From IMG/VR virus record IMGVR_UViG_3300015171_000004, positions 1 to 60,019 of that record: a stretch of 60,019 nt of DNA; one strand, 5' to 3'. Shown piece by piece: positions 3,611 through 37,987 of the stretch. The first letter of the stretch is position 1; each line of letters begins with the position of its first letter. The notes below the pieces were generated by a model. It saw only the letters and a program-made list of their open reading frames with translations. It had not been told where the DNA came from and did no database searches. The translations under genes and the position numbers were made by a program. This stretch comes from a virus.

Positions 3611-3729
3611 TCATTTCCGTCTTTCTTTCTAGACAACGCCCACATGAATAACAAAGCTACTCCGGTCAAGAATATTCCAATCAGGAGGGCAATTAATTCT
3701 ATCATTGCTGTATCTAGTGTTGCTGGCAT
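3604..3729 (-). CDS. Small membrane protein, 41 aa
   Basis: ATG 3729 directly follows the upstream TAA (TAAATG). One strong membrane segment (about residues 11-31, ELIALLIGIFLTGVALLFMW) and a short KKDGNEW tail. Coupled on both sides. Function unknown. Confidence 0.6.
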   Translation of the reverse strand: MPATLDTAMIELIALLIGIFLTGVALLFMWALSRKKDGNEW

Positions 3730-16753: not shown

Positions 16754-17314
16754 CTACCTTCCAGCGAAATCGTGAAACTTGGCAGCCAGCTTCGCTACTT
16801 TCTTGCTAACGGTGCCTTGTGCCATAGGCGCTCCGCCCTCAACTTCGGCAATGACCGCAGCCAACTTTGACATGCTAACGTCTTCGTTGTTGACGTAGTA
16901 CTTGACGCGCAGGGCCATAATGACCGCCTCGGACGGGTTCAGCTTTGATACAAATGTCGATAGCAAGTCGTTAAGATCGACTATGCTGTAGTCGTCTGCT
17001 AAGTCTTCTAGGGTCTCGCCAACGCTCTCGCCTTCTTCTGTAACGTAGTCAGAAGATAATTGTGGAAGGATGCGGGCGCGGGTCATTTGTTTACGCTGTA
17101 CGTCAATCATAGCATTCTTGATAGCGATTGCCGCGTATCCCCCGAAGTCGCCCTCCGTTTGATTGCTGATGAACTTGCGGGCCGATAGGAATAGCGCCTC
17201 ATGCCCAGCAGATACGGCGTCGTCAAAGTCTATGGTACGAAACTGTTTTGCAATCTTAGCAACCGTTGCGTAGTTGTCATTAACGAGTGCCTCAATCATT
17301 GCGTCTTTGTTCAT
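16754..17314 (-). CDS. Phage-encoded sigma-70-family factor, 186 aa
   Basis: Region 2 is recognisable at about residues 30-78: FDDAVSAGHEALFLSARKF, then GGYAAIAIKNAMIDVQRKQ, the core-binding and -10-recognition helices. An acidic linker follows, then a region 4-like helix-turn-helix (LNPSEAVIMALRVKYY, ending GTVSKKVAKLAAKF). The length and two-domain build match ECF or sporulation-type group 4 factors, which bind core RNA polymerase and redirect it. ATG 17314 follows TGGAGAACGCA; an ATG 12 nt upstream is possible. It has the strongest early promoter (17360-17404). The eight GGAAT-N18-GTT promoters at the replication genes are its natural candidate targets (inference). Confidence 0.8.
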   Translation of the reverse strand: MNKDAMIEALVNDNYATVAKIAKQFRTIDFDDAVSAGHEALFLSARKFISNQTEGDFGGYAAIAIKNAMIDVQRKQMTRARILPQLSSDYVTEEGESVGETLEDLADDYSIVDLNDLLSTFVSKLNPSEAVIMALRVKYYVNNEDVSMSKLAAVIAEVEGGAPMAQGTVSKKVAKLAAKFHDFAGR

Positions 17315-17359: not shown

Positions 17360-17404
17360 AGTATAATGTAGCATCCTTGCTATGTCAATGGGATAATAGT
17401 ACTA
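17360..17404 (-). promoter_or_regulatory. Early boxed promoter, class I, upstream of sigma factor
   Basis: Minus strand: TAGTACTA (17397-17404), 9 bp, -35 TTGACA (17383-17388), 17 bp, -10 TATACT (17360-17365). An ATG at 17352, 7 nt after the -10, opens Met-Lys-Gln-Ser-stop. The TAG of the upstream gene is the end of the box. The core is one of the closest to consensus in the window. Confidence 0.9.
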
Positions 17405-19164: not shown

Positions 19165-19997
19165 TTCAGTAACCTCTCGAAACGCTTTTCCGGATGGAAG
19201 CAAACGTCTGACACTGGGCAGTTTTTAGCCCTACCGCTATTCTCATCTTTGCATACGCCCTTAACCAGTCGGTGGTTTATTTCATTCTCCTTTAGGCATC
19301 GTAGCAGGTCTTTAGAGCGTTGCACGTACGGCAGGACTAGTTCCCGGTCGTACTCTACTTCAAAGGCTAGGAAGTTTTGCGTGTTCTTATCCTCAAAGAT
19401 TAGCACGGCCTTATAAATTCCAGTAAGGTGCATGTACAGATTAGCCTGCCGCAGCGCGTCCTGGTACTTTGGGTTCATCTCAGGATTAGACGCTATCTTC
19501 TCGTATGTCTCATGTCCGTACCCCTTAATCTCGCATATGTATTGTTCACCGTCAACCTCTAATATGATATCTGGTGTAAACGAGAGGGCTATCTTTGACG
19601 GCTCATATTCAATGTGGTACCGCTTGCCAAGTCCAGTGATGTATCTGTATTCCCCTGGCAGGATCGATATGTTCGATAGACTGTCAAGGTTAATAAGGTG
19701 CTCCGTCTCATTGTATAGAGCCATCCCGGCGTCAAGTGCCAATTTCTGCCATTTTTCGTGAATTGTCCACCCCGCCAGGAATATCCGTAGCAGGGGCGCA
19801 TCAATCTCCGGCGTGTCGCGTTCGTACCTCGTCCCTAGAACATGTTCACGGTGGCAATACTTGCTAGTGCCTACGGTTGCGTGTGCCAATAGGCTAGAGG
19901 CGTGAAAACCGCTCCGCGCCCCCTTGTTGTCGTTCCAAACGTGAAACAATCCATCTAGCCTGCGCTTCCATAGTGCGTTCTTTATCACGTTTCCCAT
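19161..19997 (-). CDS. Cas4/RecB-like PD-(D/E)XK nuclease with Fe-S cysteines, 278 aa
   Basis: The nuclease core is FTPDIILEVDG followed by CEIKGYG (about residues 152-170), the D...ExK metal site. A Cys near residue 49 (KYCHREH) and three near the C-terminus (KGVCKD, KNCPVSDVCF) have the spacing of the 4Fe-4S cluster of Cas4 and AddB-type nucleases. Known members are 5'-3' exonucleases. ATG 19997 overlaps the upstream TAA in TAATG. No CRISPR array or cas1/cas2 is nearby, so a replication or recombination role is more likely. Confidence 0.75.
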   Translation of the reverse strand: MGNVIKNALWKRRLDGLFHVWNDNKGARSGFHASSLLAHATVGTSKYCHREHVLGTRYERDTPEIDAPLLRIFLAGWTIHEKWQKLALDAGMALYNETEHLINLDSLSNISILPGEYRYITGLGKRYHIEYEPSKIALSFTPDIILEVDGEQYICEIKGYGHETYEKIASNPEMNPKYQDALRQANLYMHLTGIYKAVLIFEDKNTQNFLAFEVEYDRELVLPYVQRSKDLLRCLKENEINHRLVKGVCKDENSGRAKNCPVSDVCFHPEKRFERLLK

Positions 19998-20311
19998 TAT
20001 TTGGTCTCGACATATTCCCACGACTTGATAGAGCCGTGATTAACGAGGTAAGTGAGGATGGACTCCACAATAGGGCCGTCCTCAATATCCGCAACCAACA
20101 CGCGACCGACACGAGGAACGAGGATGCGCTTTTCAATCTTCAGCGCCTCAAATGGGTTGCTCCATGCCTTATCAATCTCTTCTCCATACATTTCGCGGGC
20201 TTTTTCTCCCAGGTCTTTTAGTGACAGGATGGACTCGTCAATCAAGTGACCCATCACTTTTAACTGTATCTCATCATCAACATTCATCTCGATTGCTATT
20301 TTACGTAACAT
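19997..20311 (-). CDS. Hypothetical protein of the recombination operon, 104 aa
   Basis: ATG 20311 follows AAAGGAAAACAAAA. Helical N-terminal two thirds, beta-like end. First gene after the middle-type promoter at 20349-20381. No family recognised. Confidence 0.6.
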   Translation of the reverse strand: MLRKIAIEMNVDDEIQLKVMGHLIDESILSLKDLGEKAREMYGEEIDKAWSNPFEALKIEKRILVPRVGRVLVADIEDGPIVESILTYLVNHGSIKSWEYVETK

Positions 20312-20348
20312 TTTTGTTTTCCTTTACTGATATCTACGTCTCTCTCTC

Positions 20349-20381
20349 TAATACAAACGGATGCCGCGCCCTAGTTATTCC
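20349..20381 (-). promoter_or_regulatory. Middle promoter, ECF-like (GGAAT-N18-GTTTGTATTA)
   Basis: Minus strand: GGAAT (20377-20381), 18 bp, GTT (20356-20358) within GTTTGTATTA. Same layout as seven other sites in 20-31.5 kb. Heads the operon of the Cas4-like and RuvC-like nucleases. Confidence 0.8.
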
Positions 20382-20402
20382 ATCAAATGAGAGCCACGTA
20401 GA

Positions 20403-20456
20403 AGGGCCTTGCAAGGAAGAAACGTATAATCTACCGTCTCATCCCCACAAGGCCCT
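20403..20456. terminator. Long-loop inverted repeat after DNA polymerase gene
   Basis: Arms AGGGCCTTG (20403-20411) and CAAGGCCCT (20448-20456) enclose a 36-nt loop, starting 21 bp after the polymerase stop. The T-tract is weak. It probably ends or attenuates the polymerase transcript before the next middle promoter. Confidence 0.5.
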
Positions 20457-20477
20457 GTGTTGAGTCTCTCCTAAAGA

Positions 20478-23177
20478 CTACTTGCCATTCCTGGCTTTTG
20501 CCCTCGCTTGTTTCAGCTTTTGATAGAGCGTCTTGCAATATCGTCTGGATAATTCAACGATATCCTTATCGTCGAACACTAACGCGCCCGCTTTTTCCAG
20601 AACATCATAGGCACGCTCGTTTACCTGCCGCTTGGGGATAAGTGAACGCATATGCCCGGCACTCTCGTATGGACCCATCTCGATAATAGACCGCGCTGCC
20701 ACAGGCCCGATACCTGCTATGGAGGATATCCCCTTCTGTATCCACTTATCACCATCCTTGTCGGTCACTACCTGATAGTCGCTAGAGGAATTGACCGTTG
20801 CTATCATAATCGATACCCCGCTGTTTAGCGCGTCAAGTTCGTACTCTATGCGCTTCACTTCTTTCTCTTCAGACATTAGCAGGGCGCAGTAGTACTCCAC
20901 AGGGTGGTAGTGTTTCAGGTATGCCGTATAGTAGGAGAATAGCCCGTACCCAACGGCGTGCGCTTTCTTGAACCCATAGAGAGACAAGCAATCGAACATG
21001 TCCTGGGCGTTCTCATCACTTAGGCCGCGCCCCTTTAGGCCCGCAAGCATTTTGTCCTGCAACCCCTTGTACTGGCCTATCGTCTTTTTCGAGACCGCTT
21101 TGATTAGCTTGTCGGTCTCTTGCCTATCAAGTCCAGCCCACAAACAAAGTTTAATAATGTGGTCGCTATACAGGAATACGCCGTACGTGTCTGGCGCTAT
21201 CTCCATTTCATAGCTGGGTATATCCGCTCTATCAACTCCGTCAAGCAGGCGCTCGGCATATTTATCTAGGTATCCGAAGGCTAGCGGACCCGGCCTATTG
21301 ATGCCATTCAGTGCGAATATGTCCATATCCGTTTGTGGAGACACCTGATAAGCGTACTCCTTAGCCTGGCGGCTATCGAATTGGAACACGCCCGTTAGTA
21401 TGCCCTCTCTGAAGTCATTCAGTACGGCGTCGTCATTGCGTATAGAGTAGATGTCGTATTTCTTCCCTATCATCTTCTCACAGTTCGCTACGGTATCCAG
21501 CGTGCCAAGACCCAACACATCAAACTTGACGATACCGATATGTCCCAGGTCGTTCAGGTCAAAAGCAGTTTGCAGTCCATTCTTGCTATGCTGCAAAGGT
21601 ACCATTGTATCAATGTCCTTGGTTGCAATGGCTATGCCTGCTGGGTGCATTCCAATGTATCGCACCTGTCCATACAGGCGTACGAAGTGGGTGACTGCCT
21701 TGCACTCTTGCTCGGCGTCCCTTAACGCGCCCGCAGTCATAAGGTACGACCGCAGGGTTATCTTATCCATGTCACTGCTTGTTTTCCCCTCCAACATTGC
21801 GTCAAGGCGCATCTTGAATGCACGCCCTTCGTCCTCTGACATCTCTAGGGCTTTCACCAGATCGTTAGCAAGGTTTTTCACCTGATAGTATCCGTACGTG
21901 GATATCTGCGCGGCCCGCCCCTCATACTTGCGCATGATGTAGGCAACAACCTCGCCACGACGTGACCGGGGAAAGTCCATATCAATGTCAGGCGTTGTCT
22001 CCTTATCCTCTCGCAAGAATGTATCGAACGGGATATCATATAGGATAGGGTCTATTTCTGTCACACCGATAGCAAAAGCCAGCAGAGAGCCACACACGGA
22101 CCCGCGCCCGAAGTTGGCACGTATCCCGTTGTCTCTTGCGAACTTGTACAGGTCATAGCAGAGAAGGAAGTAGTCAATGAATCCCTTTTTCATGACCGTG
22201 TTAAATTCGTACGCTAGCCTATCCCGGTATACCTTGTTGGCGTCTCCAACATATAGGCCCGCCCGCTTTAGGCCATTCTTACAGATGTTATACAGCTTTG
22301 TCTTGCTATCCTCTCCCCATTCAAGGCTAGGGATTTCTTCCTTATTGAAGATGTCCACCAAATCGCACTTATCGGCTATGCGGTCGGTCTCAGCGATACA
22401 AGCAACGTCGTCACAACTATAGGGAGTATCCCCCATAAGTTCCTGCCAAGCACACACCAACTCAATCTCGTTGCCTATGTGTCGGTTATGGTACGTCGCT
22501 TCGTCCATCGTCTTGTTTCCCATCTTCATCATTAGTTGATGGGTCTCTTCTTCTTCCTTGCGTATGAAGTGGCTATCCTGGGTCATGACTCCCTTGACGC
22601 CGTGCTTTTTCCCTAGCTCTAGTACTTTTCCGTTGACCATCTTCTGATGGCCTGTCTCATCTCCGTACGGTTGCACCTCCATATAGAAGTTATCGCCAAA
22701 CAGTTTCTTGAACGCCGCAGTGGACTTATCGGCAAGTTCATCCTGGCCGTTCAGGATGGCCTGGGGGATGAATGCGCCTAAGCATCCACTAGTGACTATC
22801 AGTCCCTTACTAAAGCGCTTCAACAAGTCCCAGGTGATGATAGGGTGATAGTAGTATTGTGTCTCAGAAGCGATAGAGACCATTTGACATAGGTTCTTGT
22901 ATCCCTCCAACGTCTGACATAGAACGGTCATGTGATAACGTTTGTGTTCCTTGTCAGGGTGGAATGTATGCTGCCAGTATATTTCGCATCCGTGTATCCA
23001 CTTGATACCTGCCGCCTGACAACCCAGCTGGTGTCGGACTAGTCCAGACATGGTGCCGTGGTCTGTGTTTGCTAGGGCGTTTAGTCCCTGATCTTTGGCA
23101 TGTTGGGCCGCCTCTTCACACGTACCCATTCCATCAAAGTTTGAAAAGCAACTATGTTTATGCAGTGCACTAGCCAT
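20478..23177 (-). CDS. dnaE: DnaE-type DNA polymerase III alpha subunit, 899 aa
   Basis: The N-terminal PHP domain is clear (HKHSCFSNFDG, ANTDHG, GCEIYW, all within the first 70 residues). The C-family polymerase core has the catalytic PDIDMDFPRSRR near residue 405 and GVFQFDS and NRPGP segments. A helix-hairpin-helix (ISSIAGIGPVAARSI) lies near residue 840. At 899 aa it is about 250 shorter than bacterial DnaE and seems to lack the C-terminal OB and tau-binding regions, as in other phage versions. It is the replicative polymerase. ATG 23177 overlaps the stop of the HNH gene. Confidence 0.95.
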   Translation of the reverse strand: MASALHKHSCFSNFDGMGTCEEAAQHAKDQGLNALANTDHGTMSGLVRHQLGCQAAGIKWIHGCEIYWQHTFHPDKEHKRYHMTVLCQTLEGYKNLCQMVSIASETQYYYHPIITWDLLKRFSKGLIVTSGCLGAFIPQAILNGQDELADKSTAAFKKLFGDNFYMEVQPYGDETGHQKMVNGKVLELGKKHGVKGVMTQDSHFIRKEEEETHQLMMKMGNKTMDEATYHNRHIGNEIELVCAWQELMGDTPYSCDDVACIAETDRIADKCDLVDIFNKEEIPSLEWGEDSKTKLYNICKNGLKRAGLYVGDANKVYRDRLAYEFNTVMKKGFIDYFLLCYDLYKFARDNGIRANFGRGSVCGSLLAFAIGVTEIDPILYDIPFDTFLREDKETTPDIDMDFPRSRRGEVVAYIMRKYEGRAAQISTYGYYQVKNLANDLVKALEMSEDEGRAFKMRLDAMLEGKTSSDMDKITLRSYLMTAGALRDAEQECKAVTHFVRLYGQVRYIGMHPAGIAIATKDIDTMVPLQHSKNGLQTAFDLNDLGHIGIVKFDVLGLGTLDTVANCEKMIGKKYDIYSIRNDDAVLNDFREGILTGVFQFDSRQAKEYAYQVSPQTDMDIFALNGINRPGPLAFGYLDKYAERLLDGVDRADIPSYEMEIAPDTYGVFLYSDHIIKLCLWAGLDRQETDKLIKAVSKKTIGQYKGLQDKMLAGLKGRGLSDENAQDMFDCLSLYGFKKAHAVGYGLFSYYTAYLKHYHPVEYYCALLMSEEKEVKRIEYELDALNSGVSIMIATVNSSSDYQVVTDKDGDKWIQKGISSIAGIGPVAARSIIEMGPYESAGHMRSLIPKRQVNERAYDVLEKAGALVFDDKDIVELSRRYCKTLYQKLKQARAKARNGK

Positions 23178-23604
23178 TATTTTTCCATTCCTTTACATTT
23201 TCGTCAAGCCAACTATCTCGTAACTCAATTAGAGCCACAATATTTTTAGACTCTCTAGTTATTCGCTTTTCACCGTGTCTTACTTGCAGTATGTAAGACC
23301 CCCTAGATTCCCTATAGTGTATGTTTTTATGCCCCGTCTTATTGTTGGCTTGTTTGGGCCTGTTCATCATGTTAAGGGCCTTGGTAGCCAGTCTTAGGTT
23401 ACATCTGCGGTTATCTAATTTATCATTATTTATGTGGTCAATCTGGTAATCAGAAATTTCGCCAAACATGCGCTCCGCTATCACGCGATGAAGCATGACG
23501 TGCTTACCTTTTTTCTTTGTCTCGGCATATCCGCGCCTACAAGCATACACGTTGCTAGCATACAGGTCTGCGTCAATCTCATCAAACTTAAATCTTTCGT
23601 CCAT
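23170..23604 (-). CDS. HNH endonuclease (homing-type), 144 aa
   Basis: The HNH core is YQIDHINNDKLDNRRCNLR (about residues 77-95), followed by an AP2-like DNA-binding segment (GHKNIHYRESRGSYILQV). This is the common free-standing phage homing endonuclease build. It lies directly in front of the polymerase gene and overlaps its start, so its promoter (23622-23654) also serves the polymerase. A paralogue is at 24995-25450. Confidence 0.9.
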   Translation of the reverse strand: MDERFKFDEIDADLYASNVYACRRGYAETKKKGKHVMLHRVIAERMFGEISDYQIDHINNDKLDNRRCNLRLATKALNMMNRPKQANNKTGHKNIHYRESRGSYILQVRHGEKRITRESKNIVALIELRDSWLDENVKEWKNNG

Positions 23605-23621
23605 TATATTTATCTCCTTAA

Positions 23622-23654
23622 TAATATTAACGGTTGTCGCGGAGCAAATATTCC
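23622..23654 (-). promoter_or_regulatory. Middle promoter, ECF-like
   Basis: Minus strand: GGAAT (23650-23654), 18 bp, GTT (23629-23631) within GTTAATATTA. Heads the HNH-DNA polymerase operon. The ribosome binding site AAGGAG is only a few bases downstream, giving a very short leader. Confidence 0.75.
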
Positions 23655-23685
23655 CCCACCTCGTGAGAAGCGGGGGGGCTTAGTA

Positions 23686-24120
23686 CTATTGGTTTTCGCT
23701 GGCTAGCCGCTCTTCTTCAATCTGAATGAGGTACTTGATATAGAACTCTGCCTTGCGCAAGTCCTTTAGGCCATCTTTGCGCCGCCAACGGCTAACGTAT
23801 TTAACCACGTTTCCTTCGCTGAATGAAAGTTTGTTCAGTTCGCTAAAGTCAATTGACCGGATAACTTCGGCCTTGTAGTGGTCGCTGTGGGGTGCGCTTG
23901 CTAACAGTTCGTCGTGCTTGCTGGTTGGTTGTTTCTCCACTTTTGTTTCTCCTTTATCGTTGTATGCTGCTACGATATCAACAAGATATCGCTCTTCTAC
24001 GCCCGCCGTACCAGTCCATGACAGACCGATTTCAAATGTATCGCTGACATAATTGTACCAGTAGCGAGCGCCCGCAACCGCTGCGGCGTTTTGTACGTCT
24101 GCTATCGTTGGTCGTGACAT
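23686..24120 (-). CDS. DUF3310 (SaV-like / T7 gp1.7-like) protein, 144 aa
   Basis: The C-terminal 65 residues carry the DUF3310 pattern: SDHYKAEVIRSIDF, then GNVVKYVSRWRRKDGLKDL and KAEFYIKYLI. Family members occur near replication genes; the T7 relative gp1.7 is a nucleotide kinase. The N-terminal 75 residues are an unassigned extension. ATG 24120 follows TGGAGAAAACA. Downstream of the ssDNA-binding protein gene. Confidence 0.75.
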   Translation of the reverse strand: MSRPTIADVQNAAAVAGARYWYNYVSDTFEIGLSWTGTAGVEERYLVDIVAAYNDKGETKVEKQPTSKHDELLASAPHSDHYKAEVIRSIDFSELNKLSFSEGNVVKYVSRWRRKDGLKDLRKAEFYIKYLIQIEEERLASENQ

Positions 24121-24159
24121 TGTTTTCTCCATATGGGGCGCGTCCCTGCGCCTCGTTAA

Positions 24160-24990
24160 CTAGTCTTCGTCCTCGAAACTAATTTCGTCGGATGTTTCAA
24201 CCTTTGGCGCTGGCTTGGCACGTTTTACAGGAGCTTTCTTTTCCGGCTGTAAGCTTTCCGGTACCTCAACCTCAACTCCTTCGTCGTCGTCATGTACGAC
24301 TACTGCTGGCGCGTTCTTGCGCTTGTTGACGGCGCTTGCAATCGCGTTACCTGCATGCGCTTCGTCCTTCTTCTCAGAAGGTTTCACAATGCTATCGGCA
24401 GGAACGTACTCCATAGCCTTTGCAAGTTCAGGACCACGCGCCAACACGAGAGAACGGATGATTGCCTCTTCTTTTGGTGCCTTGACTTTACCCTCAAACT
24501 GGAAGGGGGTTTCTTTCAGGCTAGGGGTGATGGAATAATCCATGCCGTTCAACTTGATAGTGAAGTCACGACCAACCAATGAGCCAGCCTCTTCGTACAG
24601 GTCAAACAGTTTCCCGGCAAGCGTCTTAGGGTTGTTTTTGCCGGTCACTAGACGTACCATGTTTTCCTCATAATCCCAAACAGGCCAAATGTACAGGAAT
24701 GTATTGTTGCGTGTCTGGCGGTCGGTGCTATCGCAATATTCGCACGTCTCGAAATCAAAGTGTTCGTCTTTCCAGCATGGCGTAGAAATTCCGTATTCAC
24801 CATACTCTTTGTTTTTGGACTTGTGCCACTTCATAACAATGCCGCCGTCAAAGTCAGTCAGGAAACGTACCCGGCTTTTCCCGGTCTCTTTGTTCGCACG
24901 GAACTCTACCTTCCATAAGAGGACTCCGCCAGTATCTTGTGATTTCTGTTTAGCCTGCTCCGCAGCGAACATTTGTGCAAGTGATGCCAT
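24160..24990 (-). CDS. Zinc-containing ssDNA-binding protein, T4 gp32-like, 276 aa
   Basis: The order is: Ala/Gln-rich N-terminal arm, OB-like core with PCWKDEHFDFETCEYCD (C-x4-H-x5-C-x2-C zinc site, about residues 71-87), and a Lys/Pro-rich linker ending in acidic SFEDED. An acidic tail is the partner-recruiting end of phage SSBs. The start ATG 24990 (MASLAQMF) lies 4 nt after the HNH stop. It would coat ssDNA at the fork. Confidence 0.85.
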   Translation of the reverse strand: MASLAQMFAAEQAKQKSQDTGGVLLWKVEFRANKETGKSRVRFLTDFDGGIVMKWHKSKNKEYGEYGISTPCWKDEHFDFETCEYCDSTDRQTRNNTFLYIWPVWDYEENMVRLVTGKNNPKTLAGKLFDLYEEAGSLVGRDFTIKLNGMDYSITPSLKETPFQFEGKVKAPKEEAIIRSLVLARGPELAKAMEYVPADSIVKPSEKKDEAHAGNAIASAVNKRKNAPAVVVHDDDEGVEVEVPESLQPEKKAPVKRAKPAPKVETSDEISFEDED

Positions 24991-24994
24991 GATT

Positions 24995-25450
24995 TTAGCT
25001 CTCTTTCTTTCTTGTGTTCTTGAATTCCCCAGCAACTGCTGTAAGGAAGTTATCTCTCTCTTCTATAAGTCTGTTTAGGTCTTTAGAGACCCTAACTAGT
25101 TTTTGCCCCGATATCCTAACCTGTAGGACGTATTTTTGTATCTTGCTATCGAAGTGTATGTTTTTTATTCCTAGCCTGTTATCCTTGTGTGTCGTTGTAT
25201 TCATGCAATTCTGTTTGCGTGTCGCTAGTCTCAGGTTGCATCTACGATTGTCAAGTTTATCACCGTTTATGTGGTCTATGTCAAGACCTATGCAAGAATC
25301 GTAACCAAAAATCTCCTCTCCTGTCTCTCTGTGAACATAGACGCCCGCCCACTTCCCACATTCCCAAGACACTCTCTGCGCATATCCGCTAGGTGTCATT
25401 CTTACGCAACCTTCGTATTTTTTGGCGTCTATCTCGTCATACCTAAGCAT
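24995..25450 (-). CDS. HNH endonuclease (homing-type), 151 aa
   Basis: Core IDHINGDKLDNRRCNLR (about residues 58-74) and GIKNIHFDSKIQKYVLQV show it is a paralogue of the 23170-23604 enzyme. It precedes the ssDNA-binding protein gene and shares its middle promoter (25499-25531). Both copies thus sit first in a replication operon. Confidence 0.9.
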   Translation of the reverse strand: MLRYDEIDAKKYEGCVRMTPSGYAQRVSWECGKWAGVYVHRETGEEIFGYDSCIGLDIDHINGDKLDNRRCNLRLATRKQNCMNTTTHKDNRLGIKNIHFDSKIQKYVLQVRISGQKLVRVSKDLNRLIEERDNFLTAVAGEFKNTRKKES

Positions 25451-25498
25451 TTTTCTACCTCCTCGTTTCGTTTCCCGTCCGCCGCGCTCCCCTTACAT

Positions 25499-25531
25499 TA
25501 ATACTAACGTTTGGGGTATCCGGATTATTCC
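25499..25531 (-). promoter_or_regulatory. Middle promoter, ECF-like
   Basis: Minus strand: GGAAT (25527-25531), 18 bp, GTT (25506-25508) within GTTAGTATTA. It overlaps the last codons of the primase gene and heads the HNH-SSB-DUF3310 operon. Confidence 0.85.
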
Positions 25532-26460
25532 ACCAATTCGTAAGAAGTTTCTACGCAGTGCTTCATCTCCTCTCTAGACTCAATTTCTCCCAAGTCATTT
25601 CTCCCACCGAAGTAGAAGCGCGTGACCGGGATGCTGGGGGCGTTCTTCTCAAACCACTGTCTAGCTACCCTATACCCACGCTCCCCCGCCGTATCGTTGT
25701 CTGTGCTCCATAGAACACCGCTAGCGTACGACGCTATCTTCTTTAGTTGTGGCTCCGATGGAGTGCAGCCAAGAATGCACGCCGTGTTTTTGTATCCGTT
25801 CTGGTATGCCTTAATCCGGTCAAACATTCCCTCGGCAACAATCACGCGCTTACCAGCTACCAATGTTCCCGGCAGCGTCGTCTCTTTAATGAGTCCCAGA
25901 TTGTTCTTGTATTTTCTGTCCTTTACATCGTCAACGCGCCGCGCCACGTATCCCTTAAAGTTTCCCTGTTCAATCAGGGGAATGACGATGGGATTAGTGC
26001 TAGTGTCGTTTGTGCGTATGTGGAACGCCCGCTGCGTCTCGTATGACACGCCCCTATCACTTAGGTAGGGTATCGGTGCCTGCGGTTTCATGAGGCTCTT
26101 ATAGAACCTGTATACGTCGTCTAGCTCCTCTATCGGTTGTTGGCGTATCGATCTGGTAACACTGCTTTGCATTTTGCCGTCGTACTTTGCTATCTCAACT
26201 CCTGATAGCGAACGATGCGCCCGCAGGATTGCTTGCATGATAGAAAGATGTGGGTTTTCCTCTATCTCGTATCTTGCGATAAGTTCTAGGATGTCCCCCT
26301 CTTCGTTACAGGCCATACACCGAAAACTTCCATACGTCATATTGATGGATAGGCTTGGCGTGTTGTCGTCATGGAAGGGGCATATGATAGCAACGAAGTC
26401 CTTGTGTTCATCCCTCTCTTGTATAATGCCCCTGTCAATCAGGATGTCACTTAGTAGCAT
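25525..26460 (-). CDS. DnaG-type primase (CHC2 zinc finger + TOPRIM), 311 aa
   Basis: CHC2 zinc finger at about residues 27-52: CPFHDDNTPSLSI then FRCMAC. The TOPRIM domain has VIVAEGMFDRIKA (Glu near 207) and STDNDTAGERG (DxD near 255). It synthesises RNA primers. No helicase domain is fused, and no separate DnaB-like helicase was recognised in the window. ATG 26460 follows GGAGGGACTGGAC. Coupled to the small gene upstream. Confidence 0.9.
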   Translation of the reverse strand: MLLSDILIDRGIIQERDEHKDFVAIICPFHDDNTPSLSINMTYGSFRCMACNEEGDILELIARYEIEENPHLSIMQAILRAHRSLSGVEIAKYDGKMQSSVTRSIRQQPIEELDDVYRFYKSLMKPQAPIPYLSDRGVSYETQRAFHIRTNDTSTNPIVIPLIEQGNFKGYVARRVDDVKDRKYKNNLGLIKETTLPGTLVAGKRVIVAEGMFDRIKAYQNGYKNTACILGCTPSEPQLKKIASYASGVLWSTDNDTAGERGYRVARQWFEKNAPSIPVTRFYFGGRNDLGEIESREEMKHCVETSYELVE

Positions 26461-26651
26461 GTCCAGTCCCTCCAATGGGGAACGTATTCACCTAGTATCT
26501 GGCTCTCTAGGACGATGTGCGCATGCCCCCTGGCAATAATGACATACTTTTGTTCCTCTAGCTCTTCTCGCTTCATGACCTGCACAATAGAGCCGCTTCG
26601 GGCGCAGTCACAATCCCTAGCGAATACTACTCTGTCTCCGATGTCGTACAT
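26451..26651 (-). CDS. Hypothetical small protein, 66 aa
   Basis: Beta-rich, SH3/KOW-like start (DIGDRVVFARDCD). ATG 26651 overlaps the methyltransferase end, and its stop overlaps the primase start. No family recognised. Confidence 0.6.
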   Translation of the reverse strand: MYDIGDRVVFARDCDCARSGSIVQVMKREELEEQKYVIIARGHAHIVLESQILGEYVPHWRDWTCY

Positions 26652-27410
26652 TCTGATATCTCCTTTTTAACTCTCTCTATCCTCTCGCATCCACGCACGA
26701 AGTAAGCTTCGTCTTTTTCAAATGCGAGATACTTTCTATTTGTTAACAGACATGCATGAACCGTTGACATACTACCTGCGCAACTATCGAGAACTAAATC
26801 CCCCTCATTGGTATAGGTTTTCAACAGGTATTCCAGCAATGGTACAGCTTTTCTCGTGGGGTGCCAGGCGTCAAGTCCATTGTTTGGATTAGCGAACTTT
26901 AGCACGCTGCGGGGATATCGTTCGTCGCTCTCCGTAACCCTACCTACCCTGTCCTGTTTTCCGTAGTTTGTGCTGTTGTCGATGCCCGCGACCTTCCTGT
27001 ACGGCTCTCCCTTTGTCATTTGTGGGTTGTACGTTGGGAGATGTTTGTAGAAGACTAGTATCTCTTCGTGGGCTTTTAGTGGTGCTTTCTTAGCATTCAG
27101 GTGACCCACAGCCATCGTCTTTTCCCATATGAGATTATACCTAAGCATCTCTAGGTTAGACGCACCCAGGACTATGCTAAATGGCACCTGCGCGAATAAG
27201 ACGATAGCACCATTGTCTTTTATCACCCTCTTGTATTGCGCCCACAATGCATCTAGAGGGATAACGCTGTCCCAGGAGTTGCGTGTGGTGCCGTCAATAG
27301 GGCAAATCAGTCAATATCATGTCAATTGATTTGCTAGGTACTAGTGGCAGAAGCTCTAAGCAGTCTCCGTTATAGCAAGCGTTACGACGTAATTTACTAA
27401 TTTGCCCCAT
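26627..27410 (-). pseudogene. DNA N4/N6 methyltransferase, beta class, frameshifted
   Basis: The first 38 codons run from ATG 27410 (AAAGGAGGAAAAA upstream) through NGDCLELLP and the catalytic DLPY, then hit TGA (27294-27296). The rest, in the +1 frame, continues GTTRNSWD and on through FAQVPFS, NLIWEK and the SAM-binding VLDSCAGSMST near the end. Motif IV before motif I marks the beta class. A 4-bp TGAC insertion after the Tyr codon explains the break, because removing it restores DLPYGTTRN. As written the gene should be inactive, unless a ribosomal frameshift or a sequencing error is involved. The shorter frame from 27247 lacks the catalytic motif. Confidence 0.75.
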
Positions 27411-27492
27411 TTTTTCCTCCTTTCATTATGCTATCGATAAACAAACTACTTTGACTAGAGGTTGACTTCTTGAATTCTTCCCATTCTTCCAT
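27397..27492 (-). CDS. Small hypothetical protein, 31 aa
   Basis: The ATG overlaps the upstream TAA in TAATG; it ends 14 bp inside the methyltransferase start. Acidic helical start, polar end. Tight coupling supports it, but it could also serve only to couple translation. Confidence 0.45.
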   Translation of the reverse strand: MEEWEEFKKSTSSQSSLFIDSIMKGGKNGAN

Positions 27493-27647
27493 TAGTATAC
27501 TCCGTCTCTATCCGATGCCCGGGGGCGTCGGTGGTATCGTATCATTTGCCAGAATGGTATGTGTATGCTCTCACTACCAATGTACCATACATACATCCTA
27601 ATTGCTATCCATATCCTATATGGACTGAATAGGGGTTCATCTTCCAT
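27492..27647 (-). CDS. Small hypothetical protein, 51 aa
   Basis: ATG 27647 follows GAGAGGAGAAATCT and is the first ORF after the middle promoter at 27664-27696. Aromatic-rich middle (YRIWIAIRMYVWY) that may associate with membrane, and a basic HRRPR end. No family recognised. Confidence 0.55.
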   Translation of the reverse strand: MEDEPLFSPYRIWIAIRMYVWYIGSESIHIPFWQMIRYHRRPRASDRDGVY

Positions 27648-27663
27648 AGATTTCTCCTCTCAC

Positions 27664-27696
27664 GAATACTAACGTTTGCCAGGGGTAAATTATTCC
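27664..27696 (-). promoter_or_regulatory. Middle promoter, ECF-like
   Basis: Minus strand: GGAAT (27692-27696), 18 bp, GTT (27671-27673) within GTTAGTATTC. Heads the operon with two small genes, methyltransferase, a small gene and primase. Lies directly after a strong terminator. Confidence 0.85.
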
Positions 27697-27706
27697 AAAT
27701 AAAGAA

Positions 27707-27728
27707 CCCGTAAGCAGAAACTTACGGG
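27707..27728 (-). terminator. Rho-independent terminator
   Basis: On the minus strand CCCGTAAG-TTTCTG-CTTACGGG followed by TTCTTTATTT. Ends the 29566-27740 operon, 12 bp after the last stop. Confidence 0.9.
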
Positions 27729-27739
27729 CCTTGTGTGCG

Positions 27740-27985
27740 CTAATCGTTGGCGGGCGGCTTTGGTAACTTGTCGATCTCCTTAGTGATATGCTTGCGCATC
27801 TTTAACAGCGACATGTAGATCTCGGTATCGTCGTCGTCCATGACTTCGTTTACTTCTTTCCCCATCTCATCGGACGCGGAAACTAGGGCTAGTCTAGCTG
27901 TTACCAAATGTTCCCGGCGTCTTCGCGCCCTTGTCTGATCTTCCTCTGTGGTCTCGACGTTCTTGCTAAATCCTATCTGTGGCAT
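27740..27985 (-). CDS. Hypothetical protein, 81 aa
   Basis: ATG 27985 follows AAGGAAAGGTACTCTA and overlaps the upstream stop. Basic helical start, acidic DDDDTE turn, basic helical end, suggesting a helical hairpin. No family recognised. Last gene of the metallophosphoesterase operon. Confidence 0.6.
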   Translation of the reverse strand: MPQIGFSKNVETTEEDQTRARRRREHLVTARLALVSASDEMGKEVNEVMDDDDTEIYMSLLKMRKHITKEIDKLPKPPAND

Positions 27986-28167
27986 TAGAGTACCTTTCCT
28001 TCTATCCATTCAACTTCCATATTCATGAAAGCTACGTTCTCTCCTAAGTTTTTCAGGTGTCGCTCTAGGTTTTCCGACACCATCCGGAGCGCCTCGTATG
28101 CGCTGTTGACGTTGACGAAGAATTTTACTTCTTCGCCTCCGCTAAGTGTAACAGTAACCTTATACAT
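27985..28167 (-). CDS. Hypothetical protein, 60 aa
   Basis: ATG 28167 overlaps the end of the phosphoesterase gene; TAATG couples it to the next. Beta-beta-alpha-like pattern. No family recognised. Confidence 0.6.
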   Translation of the reverse strand: MYKVTVTLSGGEEVKFFVNVNSAYEALRMVSENLERHLKNLGENVAFMNMEVEWIEGKVL

Positions 28168-29566
28168 TCTCGAAATCGCCTCTCGACTGTTTGCGCACTA
28201 CATCTAGGTACACATGTGACACCGATACAACGCCCTTGCTATCGTTGACCGTCATAAGAGTCTGGGAGGGACGGTGAATGCTCTTGTGGGCGCTTAGTAC
28301 GTACGGAGACGTGGGTGGGAAAGAACCGTTCACTACACACATCGTATCGTACCCCGTATTGAACTGTACGGCGTTATGGAAGTGACCAATGACGTACACG
28401 TCAATCACGCCCTCAAAATGCTGGTACTTGTTTACGGCAGTGATCATTGCGTTCATCGGTACACCAACCGCGCCGCCAGCACCCCGGATGCTAGATCCGT
28501 GTTCAAACAGGACATTCAGGTCTCCAACCTGGGTTACAGCGTAGATGCTTTCGTGGTTAGTGAGAGTCACGCGACCGGCGCCAATTGGTCCCTCTAGTAT
28601 CTGTCTTGCAACCTCGCCAGCCATCCAGTCATACGAGCTAGCTGGGTCAATTTCGGCAAGCCCGCCGAGTCCTGCTTTTTGGCTTGTGCGTGCATGGTTT
28701 CCAGACACACGTTCCACTTGCACTTCGGCAACGAATGGTAGGAGCGAGGCGACGAACTGCGCCAACAAGCGACCGTATGCAACCGACTGTTTGACCGCGA
28801 TAGGCCCAACGAAACGATGCTGTGATGGGCGCATATCGTCACCGTCAACGTCGTCACCTAAGTCAAGAATGATCAACTTGCGAAACTGCTGTTTAATGGA
28901 CTCCTTAACGACGCCTGCATGCAGCATCTCAAACTGGCGCTCCGCATCTTTGGAGGTGTATTCGTATCCGCTAGTGAGGCGGGCAGGAACATGCATGCCG
29001 TAGTGTACATCTGAGATGATAAGCAAGCCGACATTCTCACTGTGTTCGTTGTTGTAAGCAATCAATTTGGGTGTCTCAACACGTGCCGATACGCTTCTAA
29101 CGGACTCGGTGTACTGACGACGAACTGCCTCACGCTGCGCAAGTTCCCGAAGCTCCCTAACGCTTTCCATATTGGCAAGCTTATCACCGTACTCTTGTAC
29201 CGCGTCTTCGGTGTCTTGGCTTACGGCCATCTGCATTAGCTTGTCACCCAACTCCCTGACCTGCTCGGCAGTCGTTCCCTGCTGTTGTGCGTACAGAGGA
29301 TAGGAGGTGTCTGCGGTGATATTTACCTTGATATCGGATGGTGATGTGTACCGTGCATCCTCGTGACCCTGCACAAAGTCAAAGCCCCTTGTGTCTTCGG
29401 TTACTGCTTTCTTCGCGGCAGACTCTGCATAGTGTGCCTTGACGATATTCTTAGCGGCGTGTCTGGTTACTCCAAAGGCGCGGCCCAGGTCTGCATACGA
29501 TAGCTTAGGGTTGCCATCGAACATGTTTACTAGTTGTTTTGCAATCTGGTTATATTTACTGGACAT
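28160..29566 (-). CDS. HTH-metallophosphoesterase (SbcD/Mre11-like), 468 aa
   Basis: Calcineurin-like metal motifs occur in order: SDVHYG (about residue 186), LGDDVDG (about 238), SGNHART (about 288), and VIGHFH (about 395). The N-terminal 60 residues look like a helix-turn-helix (YADLGRAFGVTRHAAKNIV), followed by a coiled linker. Such phage proteins are probable DNA nucleases or phosphatases acting in replication or repair. No SbcC/Rad50 partner is seen. Start is ATG 29566; a TTG at 29590 is close to the promoter. Confidence 0.8.
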   Translation of the reverse strand: MSSKYNQIAKQLVNMFDGNPKLSYADLGRAFGVTRHAAKNIVKAHYAESAAKKAVTEDTRGFDFVQGHEDARYTSPSDIKVNITADTSYPLYAQQQGTTAEQVRELGDKLMQMAVSQDTEDAVQEYGDKLANMESVRELRELAQREAVRRQYTESVRSVSARVETPKLIAYNNEHSENVGLLIISDVHYGMHVPARLTSGYEYTSKDAERQFEMLHAGVVKESIKQQFRKLIILDLGDDVDGDDMRPSQHRFVGPIAVKQSVAYGRLLAQFVASLLPFVAEVQVERVSGNHARTSQKAGLGGLAEIDPASSYDWMAGEVARQILEGPIGAGRVTLTNHESIYAVTQVGDLNVLFEHGSSIRGAGGAVGVPMNAMITAVNKYQHFEGVIDVYVIGHFHNAVQFNTGYDTMCVVNGSFPPTSPYVLSAHKSIHRPSQTLMTVNDSKGVVSVSHVYLDVVRKQSRGDFENV

Positions 29567-29600
29567 GTTTTCTACTTTCTTGCTATTCAATTTCTCTCAC

Positions 29601-29633
29601 TAGTACTAACGTGCGTCCCTGCAAGATTATTCC
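29601..29633 (-). promoter_or_regulatory. Middle promoter, ECF-like
   Basis: Minus strand: GGAAT (29629-29633), 18 bp, GTT (29608-29610) within GTTAGTACTA. Heads the metallophosphoesterase operon. Confidence 0.85.
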
Positions 29634-29634
29634 A

Positions 29635-30090
29635 CTACTTTTTGTTGGCTCTCTTCTGCCAAAAGTTTTTCTCATAGGTATCGGACTTAAAAATGTCTTC
29701 AATGCGTCCATTCTTCTCGTTGTATGTGTATCCCTCAAGTTCCGGTAACTCTTCCCAAACTGTCAGGAAACAGGTCATTTCATCTTCGGTGGCTCTGAAT
29801 GTGGTTATGGCATGATAGCCAAGTTCCCTAAAATGATCTACCATATCGTTACGCATCGTTGCCGGAATAACTACGGTGGTGTATGCGAACGGGCCTGTGT
29901 CCTTCTGGCTCAATCCGAAAAACACCATATCCGTGTAGGTACTGCGGCTTAACTGTGGCTCACGTGTTCCCGGCCTTCCGATAAGTTCATCTATCTGTTT
30001 TTTCATCGTTGCGTCCATCTCGTTTATGTTCTCCCATTTCTTTCTTGCTAAATCTATCCGTTTGTTTAGTCGTCTTCGTTTCCGTGTCAA
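29635..30090 (-). CDS. Hypothetical protein, 151 aa
   Basis: The likely start is TTG 30090, behind AGAGAGAAACA; ATG 30018 (GGGAGAA upstream) is an alternative. The first 25 residues are strongly basic (TRKRRRLNKR), the rest alpha/beta. Single gene between two middle promoters. No family recognised. Confidence 0.6.
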   Translation of the reverse strand: MTRKRRRLNKRIDLARKKWENINEMDATMKKQIDELIGRPGTREPQLSRSTYTDMVFFGLSQKDTGPFAYTTVVIPATMRNDMVDHFRELGYHAITTFRATEDEMTCFLTVWEELPELEGYTYNEKNGRIEDIFKSDTYEKNFWQKRANKK

Positions 30091-30104
30091 TGTTTCTCTC
30101 TCAC

Positions 30105-30137
30105 TAATACTAACGCATGCCGTGGGCGGATTATTCC
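30105..30137 (-). promoter_or_regulatory. Middle promoter, ECF-like
   Basis: Minus strand: GGAAT (30133-30137), 18 bp, GTT (30112-30114) within GTTAGTATTA. Drives the 151-aa gene. Confidence 0.85.
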
Positions 30138-30661
30138 ATCAGTTAGAAACAGGTGCACCAATGCGCCCAAGGACAAGTATACCATAGCGGTTGTGTCGTG
30201 TATAGGGTGGTGTGTTCGCATGCGTGTGTACGTGTGTATACGAGAAAGCATAGTAGCGTTGATGAGAGGGTTGTCAGGGGCTTCGTGTGGTCAAAGTGGT
30301 ATGATTATGGGTCTATGCATTTACAGGCCATCTCTTGACCGTCTCATTAGATATATAACTGAGGCGAATGATTTGGATGAAAACCATAACGAATGTTTCC
30401 CCTTAGTAAACCCCTTCTCTCCGGTTGACTACCTAAGTATAATAGTATTCTTGTATCTTGTCAAGGGTATATATTATGGAAGATATATAGTATACATATT
30501 GGAGTAAGGATAGTCCTATATCTATAGATATTATACTGGGATATATATATAGTCTTATATTTGGGAGTAAGAGTTATGGAAGATACATAGTGAGGATACA
30601 TATCTACAATCCTTATATTGTGAGGATATAAAGCCCTGATATATGGGTATTTTATATTGGA
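30138..30661. other. AT-rich non-coding region with degenerate repeats, possible replication origin or control region
   Basis: No convincing gene. It lies at the only divergence point of transcription. The part from about 30430 to 30670 is very AT-rich and has four ATATTGGAG-like motifs (30496-30508, 30557-30571, 30615-30628, 30654-30667) and two copies of TTATGGAAGATAYATAGT (from 30474 and from 30574). The last motif overlaps the promoter of the antirepressor gene. Iteron-like repeats in an AT-rich gap next to replication genes fit an origin or a multi-site operator. Confidence 0.4.
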
Positions 30662-30694
30662 GGAATATTTCATCTCTCGCATACGTTGGTATTA
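30662..30694 (+). promoter_or_regulatory. Middle promoter, ECF-like, plus strand
   Basis: GGAAT (30662-30666), 18 bp, GTT (30685-30687) within GTTGGTATTA. Upstream of the Rha-like gene. Confidence 0.8.
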
Positions 30695-30750
30695 ATGTGA
30701 GGGAAAGTACCCCACAATTAAAATGAAAGAAAGAAAGAAAAGAGAAAACA

Positions 30751-31479
30751 ATGACAAACGAACTTACCATTATTGAAGTAAACAATGAGAGCCGTATTGA
30801 TAGCCGGTTGGTTGCTGCTAGGTTGGAAGTTGACCACAAAGTGATTAAGGAAAATATTAGAGAGTACAAGTCAGCTTTTGAGACGCTCGGCTCACTGCCC
30901 CCTCTTGAAACGGCGGCAGTCAAAGAAGAGGGCGCAAGAGGGACTAAATACGCAACCTACTACATGTTGAATGAAGATCAATCGGTCTTTCTCATAACGC
31001 TATCGAGAAACACTAGCGCAGTGGTTGGTGCTAAGTTGGCAGTGACCCAGGCATTCAGTCAAGCACGCAAACAACCCGCCAAAGTAGACTTCAGTAACCT
31101 TACTACTGATCAAATGGACATGTTTGTGGGAGTCGTGAGCCAGGCAAAGATAGATAAGCTGGGGAGAATTGAGGCTGAGAAACAACTATCCATAGCAGCA
31201 CCCAAAGCCAGCAAGTGGGAGAAGTTTCTCGATACAGAAGGGTACATATCCTCCAACGAATTAGCAAAGCTGCTGGGGCTTAGAAGAAATAAGATGTTAT
31301 CGTCATTCCGTGATAGTGGTATTCTCACCAACACCAACCTAGCCACACAGTCTATGATCGACCGACATCCCGATTTTTTCAAGGTTGGAGTGACCGAAGA
31401 CGGCTATGCATACACGCGATACTCCGCAAGGTTCATCGACTGGTACACCACAAAGCAGGGGATGACATTGGTCTCGTAA
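30751..31479 (+). CDS. Rha-type / KilAC antirepressor-like regulator, 242 aa
   Basis: The N-terminal part has the phage Rha pattern (DSRLVAARLEVDHKVIKENI, then YYMLNEDQSVFLITLSRN, residues about 13-90). The C-terminal part fits the KilAC/ANT domain (KWEKFLDTEGYISSNELAKL, residues about 150-185). Such proteins counter prophage repressors or regulate the lytic switch. ATG 30751 follows GAAAGAAAAGAGAAAACA. One of two plus-strand genes, beside the AT-rich gap. No matching repressor or integrase was recognised, so the phage's lifestyle stays open. Confidence 0.85.
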   Translation: MTNELTIIEVNNESRIDSRLVAARLEVDHKVIKENIREYKSAFETLGSLPPLETAAVKEEGARGTKYATYYMLNEDQSVFLITLSRNTSAVVGAKLAVTQAFSQARKQPAKVDFSNLTTDQMDMFVGVVSQAKIDKLGRIEAEKQLSIAAPKASKWEKFLDTEGYISSNELAKLLGLRRNKMLSSFRDSGILTNTNLATQSMIDRHPDFFKVGVTEDGYAYTRYSARFIDWYTTKQGMTLVS

Positions 31480-31481
31480 AT

Positions 31482-31514
31482 GGAATAACCTGGGGACGGG
31501 AAACGTTAGTATTA
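31482..31514 (+). promoter_or_regulatory. Middle promoter, ECF-like, plus strand
   Basis: GGAAT (31482-31486), 18 bp, GTT (31505-31507) within GTTAGTATTA. It begins 3 bp after the antirepressor stop and stands in tandem with an early boxed promoter, both pointing at the exported protein. Confidence 0.85.
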
Positions 31515-31521
31515 GTGAGGT

Positions 31522-31589
31522 TAGTACAAATGGTTCTCTCCCCATAGTACTATTGCCTCATTGACCTAGCGGAATAAATGCCGTATAAC
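31522..31589 (+). promoter_or_regulatory. Early boxed promoter, class I (two boxes), plus strand
   Basis: Distal TAGTACA (31522-31528), proximal TAGTACT (31545-31551) 23 bp on, 9 bp, -35 TTGACC (31561-31566), 17 bp, -10 TATAAC (31584-31589). It is the only boxed promoter on the plus strand and outside 0-18.2 kb. Confidence 0.85.
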
Positions 31590-31644
31590 TAGTACATAGA
31601 AACAAGTTACGGAACACACAATAAAGAAAGAAGTGGAAAACACA

Positions 31645-32469
31645 GTGAACAAAATTTACGCAACAATCGCAGGCATTCTCATCACACTAACATTCATTCT
31701 ATCGTCCGGTATCGGTCAGGCACACGCGGCAACCGGAGCATCATTTAGCATGCGCCCAACGCACGGCAACCCCGGTGACACCAATTCGATGTACTACTTT
31801 GTCATTAACGGCTCCGCTGGGGACGTAGTCTCGAATAGCTTGCACGTATTCAATGCTGGTGGTTCATACGGGCAGGCAACACTTAAGCCAACCGACGCAA
31901 CGACAATGCAGTATGGAGGGATCGCGTTCCCAACCACTACTCCGGTCGCGGTTGGTACATGGATATCCCCGCTGCCCTCTGTCGTCTCTCTTAATGCCGT
32001 CTCTAGTACCGACATTCCTTTTACCGTTTCGATACCTAGCGACGCCACAGCAGGGTTACATATGGGCGGCGTAGTTCTACAGCCTGTGGTTCCATCCAGC
32101 AACGGAGTTTTAAAGACAGTCGGCCAGATGGCTATCCCCGTTATGGTGAATGTTTCAGGCCCGCTAAACAACTCTCTTGTGTCTAACGGAAAAGCATCGT
32201 ACAGCGTGAATGGCACGTACACATCTGTGGGTCTTCCTATCCTTAATGCCGGGAACACGCTCCTGCATCCATCTATCACCGCCACAGTGTACGACCACAA
32301 CGGAGTAGCGGTTACGAATATCACACGAAACATTCTAGCAATGCTTCCTGGTTCATCCATGACATACCCGGTGTCGTTGAATGCGCCAAGCGGAACATAC
32401 AAGATTGACGCGACCCTCACATACGAGGGCGGAAATGTTCTCCACTTATTCAAGTGTTTCACTGTCTAG
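31645..32469 (+). CDS. Exported beta-sandwich protein, WxL-associated DUF916-like, 274 aa
   Basis: The start is put at GTG 31645 because GTGGAAAACACA precedes it, as in sister genes; a GTG at 31633 is the alternative. Signal peptide: NKIYATIAGILITLTFILSS, cleavage near AHA. The mature part has two Ig-like beta domains with the feel of bacterial DUF916 (residual RPTHGNPGDTNSMYYF, HMGGVVL, MAIPVMVNV), proteins known to bind cell-wall surface partners. The long C-terminal anchor seen in the bacterial family is absent, so it may be secreted. Dual promoters suggest use both early and mid infection. Confidence 0.6.
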   Translation: MNKIYATIAGILITLTFILSSGIGQAHAATGASFSMRPTHGNPGDTNSMYYFVINGSAGDVVSNSLHVFNAGGSYGQATLKPTDATTMQYGGIAFPTTTPVAVGTWISPLPSVVSLNAVSSTDIPFTVSIPSDATAGLHMGGVVLQPVVPSSNGVLKTVGQMAIPVMVNVSGPLNNSLVSNGKASYSVNGTYTSVGLPILNAGNTLLHPSITATVYDHNGVAVTNITRNILAMLPGSSMTYPVSLNAPSGTYKIDATLTYEGGNVLHLFKCFTV

Positions 32470-32484
32470 TCAGAGGATAACACA

Positions 32485-32516
32485 AAAGGGACGCCCCATA
32501 AAACAGGCGTCCCTTT
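32485..32516. terminator. Bidirectional terminator between convergent genes
   Basis: AAAGGGACGCC (32485-32495) and GGCGTCCCTTT (32506-32516) form an 11-bp stem with A and T tracts on both sides. Ends the plus-strand gene at 32469 and the late minus-strand operon at 32529. Confidence 0.9.
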
Positions 32517-32528
32517 CTTGCTTCATCG

Positions 32529-37905: not shown

Positions 37906-37987
37906 GAGAGGCTCGCCAGTGCCCTGTGATAGAGTATACCATAGAATGTATACCCTGTCCATACACAAAGCCACTAGTAAGCCTCTC
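37906..37987 (-). promoter_or_regulatory. Promoter (37933-37961) in the loop of an intercistronic inverted repeat
   Basis: Arms GAGAGGCT (37906-37913) and AGCCTCTC (37980-37987) flank a 66-nt loop. Inside it, on the minus strand, -35 TGGACA (37956-37961), 17 bp, -10 TATACT (37933-37938). The downstream arm is followed by ATTTTATT. Read-through from the tape measure can form the hairpin, but RNA begun at the internal promoter cannot, so the tail-tip genes would gain an independent supply. Confidence 0.55.

Follow-up and report, generated by a model that had tools for sequence, protein, structure and literature searches.

We analysed a 60,019-nucleotide stretch of an unclassified tailed phage (IMG/VR record IMGVR_UViG_3300015171_000004, positions 1 to 60,019; hereafter the window), in which eight near-identical sites, all between 20.3 and 31.5 kb, occupy intergenic positions at the heads of operons. 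These sites probably form one regulon that is read by host core RNA polymerase together with the 186-amino-acid (aa) sigma factor of the phage, encoded at 16754–17314 on the minus strand. From its sequence, the phage appears to redirect host RNA polymerase by means of a promoter code of the stress type. We favor the phage sigma factor as the reader because the sites have a single spacing, are well separated in matrix score from the next-best place in the window (41.6 versus 19.1), and are all intergenic. It is further favored because the core of the sites is that of the SigH consensus and the same genome carries one sigma-70-family gene, with a predicted sigma-2 fold nearest to that of the extracytoplasmic function (ECF) sigma factor SigE, because the order of the replication module and its sigma gene parallels that of Andromedavirus and the phages GBK1, vB_BpsS-36, and PS1, and because no sigma-A promoter fits the sites.

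The eight-site motif family

The family is real, non-random, and far beyond chance. The motif GGAATA-N16-CGTT (equivalent in spacing to GGAAT-N18-GTT) occurs eight times in the window, compared with a mean of 0.085 and a maximum of one in 200 dinucleotide shuffles of the window. When gaps of 10 to 26 bases between GGAATA and CGTT were scanned, matches were found at 16 bases and at no other gap. The shorter pattern GGAAT-N16..20-GTT is only mildly enriched by itself (14 versus 7.9), so the strength of the claim rests on the longer block. This block extends over ~43 bases and reads GGAATAWY, spacer, CGTTAGTATTA(g)TGAGAG; in the eight sites no variation is seen in the columns of GGAATA and CGTT or, within the AGTATTA run, in TA and the second T. 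Information content amounts to 12.2 bits in the -35 region, 6.9 bits in CGTT, 9.4 bits in the AGTATTA discriminator, and 6.5 bits in the start region. Discriminator and start region together hold 15.9 bits over 14 positions, exceeding CGTT itself.

With a 43-column matrix the eight sites score 41.6–58.9 (20.6–51.9 with each site left out in turn), whereas shuffled windows reach 10.7 at most and the best score over 2.07 Mb of other phage and bacterial loci is 17.3 among places not fetched by the motif. No place outside the cluster, including 32.5–60 kb, scores above 19.1. The place with that score (3636–3678, minus strand), which sits upstream of a small open reading frame (ORF) and has CTTT for CGTT, is at most a degenerate ninth site and is not counted. 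The pattern GGAAT-N18-GTT is found ten times, at the eight sites and at 34844 and 49106; the two extras have neither CGTT nor the TATT (AGTATTA) block and were discarded, as were matches with other spacings at 5676, 8850, 18534, and 33784, which lack the CGTT-AGTATTA block.

The initial annotation of this DNA had described eight sites of invariant spacing just upstream of operon starts, with none seen in the early or late regions. All eight lie exactly where it had placed them, and the spacing is indeed fixed. The search of the window returned no equal match in late genes, only the extras at 34844 and 49106, and the weak place at 3636, without the G of GTT, is the one exception to the absence from early and late regions. 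The TATTA-like run that it had noted is conserved, but it is part of a longer block, the AGTATTA discriminator followed by a GTGAGAG start region, that had been noticed only in part.

Non-coding gaps make up 16% of the region 19997–32528 and all eight sites are located in them, site 3 overlapping the final 7 bases of the primase gene. The sites point into the genes behind them, their strand changing with the gene strand (six minus, two plus), and the predicted transcription start lies ~13–129 nt upstream of the start codon. An explanation other than promoters would be that a conserved DNA element, for replication or regulator binding, or else an RNA leader element has been duplicated in front of the operons; the conservation of ~43 bases, the two copies that precede HNH genes, which are mobile, and the position of the sites around a repeat-rich 520-bp non-coding centre are in its favor. 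We regard it as very improbable, given that the orientation at operon starts is always sense, on both strands and matching gene direction, and that the elements have a split -35/-10 grammar around a spacer whose sequence is unconserved (3.2 bits over 10 positions).

A plain sigma-A promoter was also considered and rejected: TAGTAT is not preceded by a -35 element at 16–18 bp, and site 5 has the broken form TAGTAC. Phage middle promoters with an activator logic exist (T4 MotA), and by this precedent GGAATA could be the site of a phage activator or appropriator, possibly the 186-aa protein, with TAGTAT/TATTA serving sigma-A as a weak -10. The conserved TAGTATTA run just downstream is compatible with such a scheme. 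It is nevertheless improbable, as there is no -35 at the right distance, the -10 matches at best four of six positions in most sites and fails in site 5, and CGTT is invariant in all eight.

Likeness to SigH- and SigR-type promoters

The Corynebacterium SigH consensus is GGAAT-N18-19-GTT (PMC10012870), and SigH of Mycobacterium tuberculosis recognizes GGAAYA, with 17 bp as the best distance to GTT (G-11 T-10 T-9; PMC6411747). Written as GGAATA-N17-GTT, the eight phage sites have a core identical to this published SigH/SigR-type consensus, in agreement with the initial annotation. The features shared with promoters of SigR (Streptomyces) and SigH (Mycobacterium, Corynebacterium) are the GGAAT/GGAAYA -35, the GTT (often cGTT) -10, and the strict 17-bp spacing (PMC10012870, PMC6411747). 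The GGAAY -35 and the (c)GTT -10 are exact in 8/8 sites, and the spacer is 17 bp in 8/8, with none at other spacings. The prediction that the eight sites are promoters of ECF type is well supported.

The two sets also differ. The phage sites stand on replication genes and carry the conserved AGTATTA discriminator and GTGAGAG start region, and the published SigR/SigH consensus has no such block. Because of these 15.9 bits beyond the -10, the sites resemble the SigR/SigH class, yet are not simple SigR/SigH promoters; a further criterion for that class is a transcription start 9–11 nt downstream of GTT that depends on an ECF holoenzyme.

Since the core is exactly the SigH/SigR optimum, a host SigR/SigH-type ECF factor (or an EcfG-like general stress sigma factor) might itself read the sites and couple phage replication to host stress, the 186-aa sigma factor having its targets elsewhere. 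That the phage encodes cell-wall proteins (one WxLIP-like, the other an amidase weakly matching LGFP) suggests that its host is Gram-positive and could be an actinobacterium. This is a possible but unlikely explanation. The ~16 bits of conserved discriminator and start region have no counterpart in the published host ECF consensus. In hosts, SigR-type factors are normally kept in check by an anti-sigma factor and would be odd as the sole drivers of polymerase and primase genes. Moreover, copies of the extended motif in GTDB genomes are single, taxonomically scattered, and near chance (10 found, ~7–8 expected), and the DnaE and portal relatives are mainly from Bacillus and Geobacillus phages. 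It is likewise unlikely that the code is shared, with the phage sigma factor and a host SigR/SigH-type stress sigma factor both firing the replication genes, the phage sigma factor reaching host stress promoters, and AGTATTA favoring the phage sigma factor. If true, phage replication and the redox or envelope stress of the host would be hooked to each other in both directions.

The phage sigma factor and a proposed cascade

The proposed reader of the sites is the one sigma-70-family protein that the phage genome encodes. It consists of sigma-2 and sigma-4, with no room for sigma-3 and no sigma-1.1, and its predicted helices fit ECF (group IV) sigma factors. The protein matches PHROG 351 ('RNA polymerase sigma factor', E 1e-7) and scores 42.6 bits against the sigma70-ECF model TIGR02937 (cut-off 42.9, residues 7–175) and 19.9 bits against Sigma70_r2 (cut-off 24). 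AlphaFold, run on the single sequence, gives a model of fair quality for sigma-2 and of poor quality for sigma-4 (predicted local distance difference test, pLDDT, 31–52). The top PDB matches of this model in Foldseek are nearly all sigma factors, none of which reaches E 0.001; the best is the N-terminal domain of the ECF factor SigE (TM score 0.82 by target, root-mean-square deviation 1.9 Å). The phage sigma gene of the initial annotation is thereby upheld as a sigma-70-family gene with only sigma-2 and sigma-4, but no SigR/SigH-specific model matches it and an actinobacterial origin is unsupported. The protein is therefore ECF-like in architecture, but not fileable as a SigR/SigH orthologue.

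Several points weigh against assigning the sites to this protein. It falls just below the curated sigma70-ECF cut-off, no SigR/SigH-specific family model is found among its 15 NCBIfam matches (E up to 0.1), and the next-best of these models are of FliA/WhiG/SigI type and cover sigma-2. The AlphaFold model is poor over sigma-4, the domain that would recognize the -35. It has no detectable homology to the sigma factors found in the same position in Bacillus phages. Finally, no second genome with both the motif and the sigma factor was found in the phage, viral-contig, and genome collections; as relatives with either were not found, the association of motif and sigma factor rests on one genome.

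The promoter of the sigma gene is of host type (TTGACA-N17-TATACT, 17360–17388, minus strand) and has no GGAATA-CGTT motif, which fits a regulator of the next class of genes. Upon infection, the host housekeeping sigma factor would transcribe the sigma gene from this promoter, starting the series at 17388. The 186-aa protein would then bind core polymerase, its sigma-4 reading GGAATA as the -35 and its sigma-2 reading CGTT as the -10 across the rigid 17-bp spacer. With GTT at -11 to -9, as in sigma-H geometry, transcription would start near the conserved GTGAGAG and AGTATTA would be the discriminator, so that transcripts from the eight sites would begin with a common purine-rich leader. The polymerase, primase, SSB-like protein, nucleases, resolvase, antirepressor, and secreted protein would be turned on together, presumably as a middle class. 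Transcription running on from site 1 through the co-directional genes could extend into the sigma gene, which would provide positive feedback. Such an arrangement would be expected of a cascade in which the host sigma factor makes the phage sigma factor, and the phage sigma factor makes the replication set. The initial proposal of a temporal class agrees with the gene content and with the host-type promoter in front of the sigma gene, and we infer that this class is a middle one.

Operons and regulatory elements around the sites

Six of the predicted ECF-type promoters are on the minus strand. Site 1 (20339–20381; GGAATAACTAGGGCGCGGCATCCGTTTGTATTAGAGAGAGAGA) heads a 104-aa gene, a RecB/Cas4-like nuclease gene, and a RuvC-like resolvase gene. 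Site 2 (23612–23654), adjoined by a terminator-like hairpin (23653–23676), heads an HNH gene and a DNA polymerase III alpha-type (DnaE-like) gene (20478–23177, minus strand). Behind site 3 (25489–25531) are an HNH gene, a gene for a 276-aa zinc-ribbon protein, and its neighbour; we read the former as SSB-like and the latter as MazG-like, from our own inspection and weak matches rather than a curated family assignment. The HNH endonuclease genes at 23170–23604 and 24995–25450 are a similar pair, and each immediately follows one of the eight predicted promoters. Site 4 (27654–27696), next to a terminator-like hairpin (27705–27730), heads a short ORF, a DNA methyltransferase gene, and a DnaG-type primase gene (25525–26460, minus strand). 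The methyltransferase frame (27116–27650) is broken, its N-terminal portion (..TDLPY) lying in another frame than its C-terminal portion, owing to a sequencing error, a frameshift, or decay. Site 5 (29591–29633) heads an SbcD/Mre11-like exonuclease gene (28160–29566) and two small genes. Site 6 (30095–30137), the closest to the consensus, heads a 127- or 151-aa gene (29635–30018/30090).

On the plus strand, site 7 (30662–30704) heads an antirepressor (Rha/KilAC) gene (30751–31479), and site 8 (31482–31524) a gene for a secreted WxLIP-like protein (31645–32469). The latter gene has tandem promoters, site 8 being followed by the host-type promoter TTGACC-N17-TATAAC (31561–31589, plus strand). 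The secreted WxLIP-like protein suggests a Gram-positive host and a role at the surface. The initial statement that every replication operon carries such a site is borne out for operons at 17–31 kb with polymerase, primase, SSB-like protein, nucleases, and resolvase; completeness cannot be claimed, as no replicative helicase was recognised in the window.

Between sites 6 and 7 lies a divergent non-coding centre of 520 bp (30138–30661) that is AT-rich near 30470–30660 and holds imperfect direct repeats (TTATGGAAGATAYATAGT, ATATTGGAGTAA). This centre is a possible replication origin or control region. It also holds a host-type promoter (TTGACA-N17-TATACT, 30436–30464, minus strand), upstream of and co-directional with site 6.

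Host-type promoters near-identical to that of the sigma gene are found at 1189, 15706, 30464, 51078, and 58941 (minus strand). In the structural half, host-type TTGACA/TGGACA-N17-TATACT sequences occur at 37961, 51078, and 58941 (minus strand), and no separate late promoter family is evident there. Most early genes have no family assignment. The early region contains pairs of AGTACT 22–23 bp apart (2399/2422, 4090/4113, 7652/7675, and 13660/13682), and single copies are found close upstream of host-type -35 hexamers at 1199, 15716, 17398, and 31546; 18 of the 27 AGTACT sequences in the window are intergenic. AGTACT resembles an operator or an activator-binding element of the early promoter class.

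Relatives and known systems

Among annotated proteins, the polymerase is closest to those of Bacillus, Geobacillus, and Agathobaculum phages (30–35% identity). No relatives were found in IMG/VR via the sigma, DNA polymerase, and TerL proteins, and the 80 DnaE loci retrieved there by a polymerase profile search (27–35% identity) include none with the sigma factor (phmmer) or a multi-copy motif family. In IMG/VR and GTDB genomes, the search with the extended motif, checked with the matrix, gave nothing beyond single, scattered copies, roughly as many as chance would yield; one apparent hit, with a single copy in an AT-rich contig (L009), was dismissed as a chance match.

Andromedavirus, Geobacillus phage GBK1, and Bacillus phages vB_BpsS-36 and PS1 share a sigma gene that follows DnaE, a RecB-like nuclease, and a Holliday resolvase, and their sigma proteins form one family. 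The window has the same order, DnaE, RecB-like nuclease, RuvC, and sigma, with two extra genes between. Homology of the 186-aa protein to the Andromedavirus sigma factor was tested and not found; it differs from the sigma factors of all four in having no detectable homology to them, and their genomes lack the GGAAT-CGTT family. No enrichment of GGAAT-CGTT is seen in GBK1, BpsS-36, Andromeda, PS1, MT835501, or AB434P2, whose repeated intergenic motifs are mostly of sigma-A type and come with operator-like repeats. GBK1 has two near-identical copies (5710 and 42982) of a 40-bp intergenic element (AAAAGTGTAACC...CTGATATATATTTAGTGAGA), a possible promoter of that phage's own sigma factor.

Among characterized systems, phiEco32 and 7-11 share with this phage a divergent sigma factor with its own promoter set and host-type early promoters, predicted from sequence (PMC4331800). 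The in silico features of the phiEco32 type found here are a phage sigma factor with a promoter family and a sigma gene under a host-type promoter. By contrast, the phage promoters of phiEco32 and 7-11 also drive late structural genes, whereas no site lies in the structural region here, and an anti-sigma factor is known in those phages (PMC4331800).

Our literature coverage, which was partial, turned up no publication that describes a family of phage promoters with this ECF grammar. The sigma factor and its promoters form an unusually clean and complete pair readable from sequence alone, with one small sigma gene and eight near-identical predicted cognate sites. If the assignment to the phage sigma factor is true, the pair would be a phage example of ECF promoter grammar serving a middle programme, would supply synthetic biology with an orthogonal sigma/promoter set, and would test how GGAAT can be recognized by a sigma-4 that has diverged so far.

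In SPO1, the middle promoters follow a different consensus, and no sequence link to SPO1 is shown. What is shared with SPO1 gp28 (middle) and gp34 (late) is the redirection of host polymerase to middle genes by a phage sigma factor (PMC9429907). SPO1, phiEco32, and 7-11 are thus precedents for phages that encode sigma factors with promoters of their own; what is new here is that a replication regulon carries the predicted ECF promoter grammar together with a conserved discriminator and start region.

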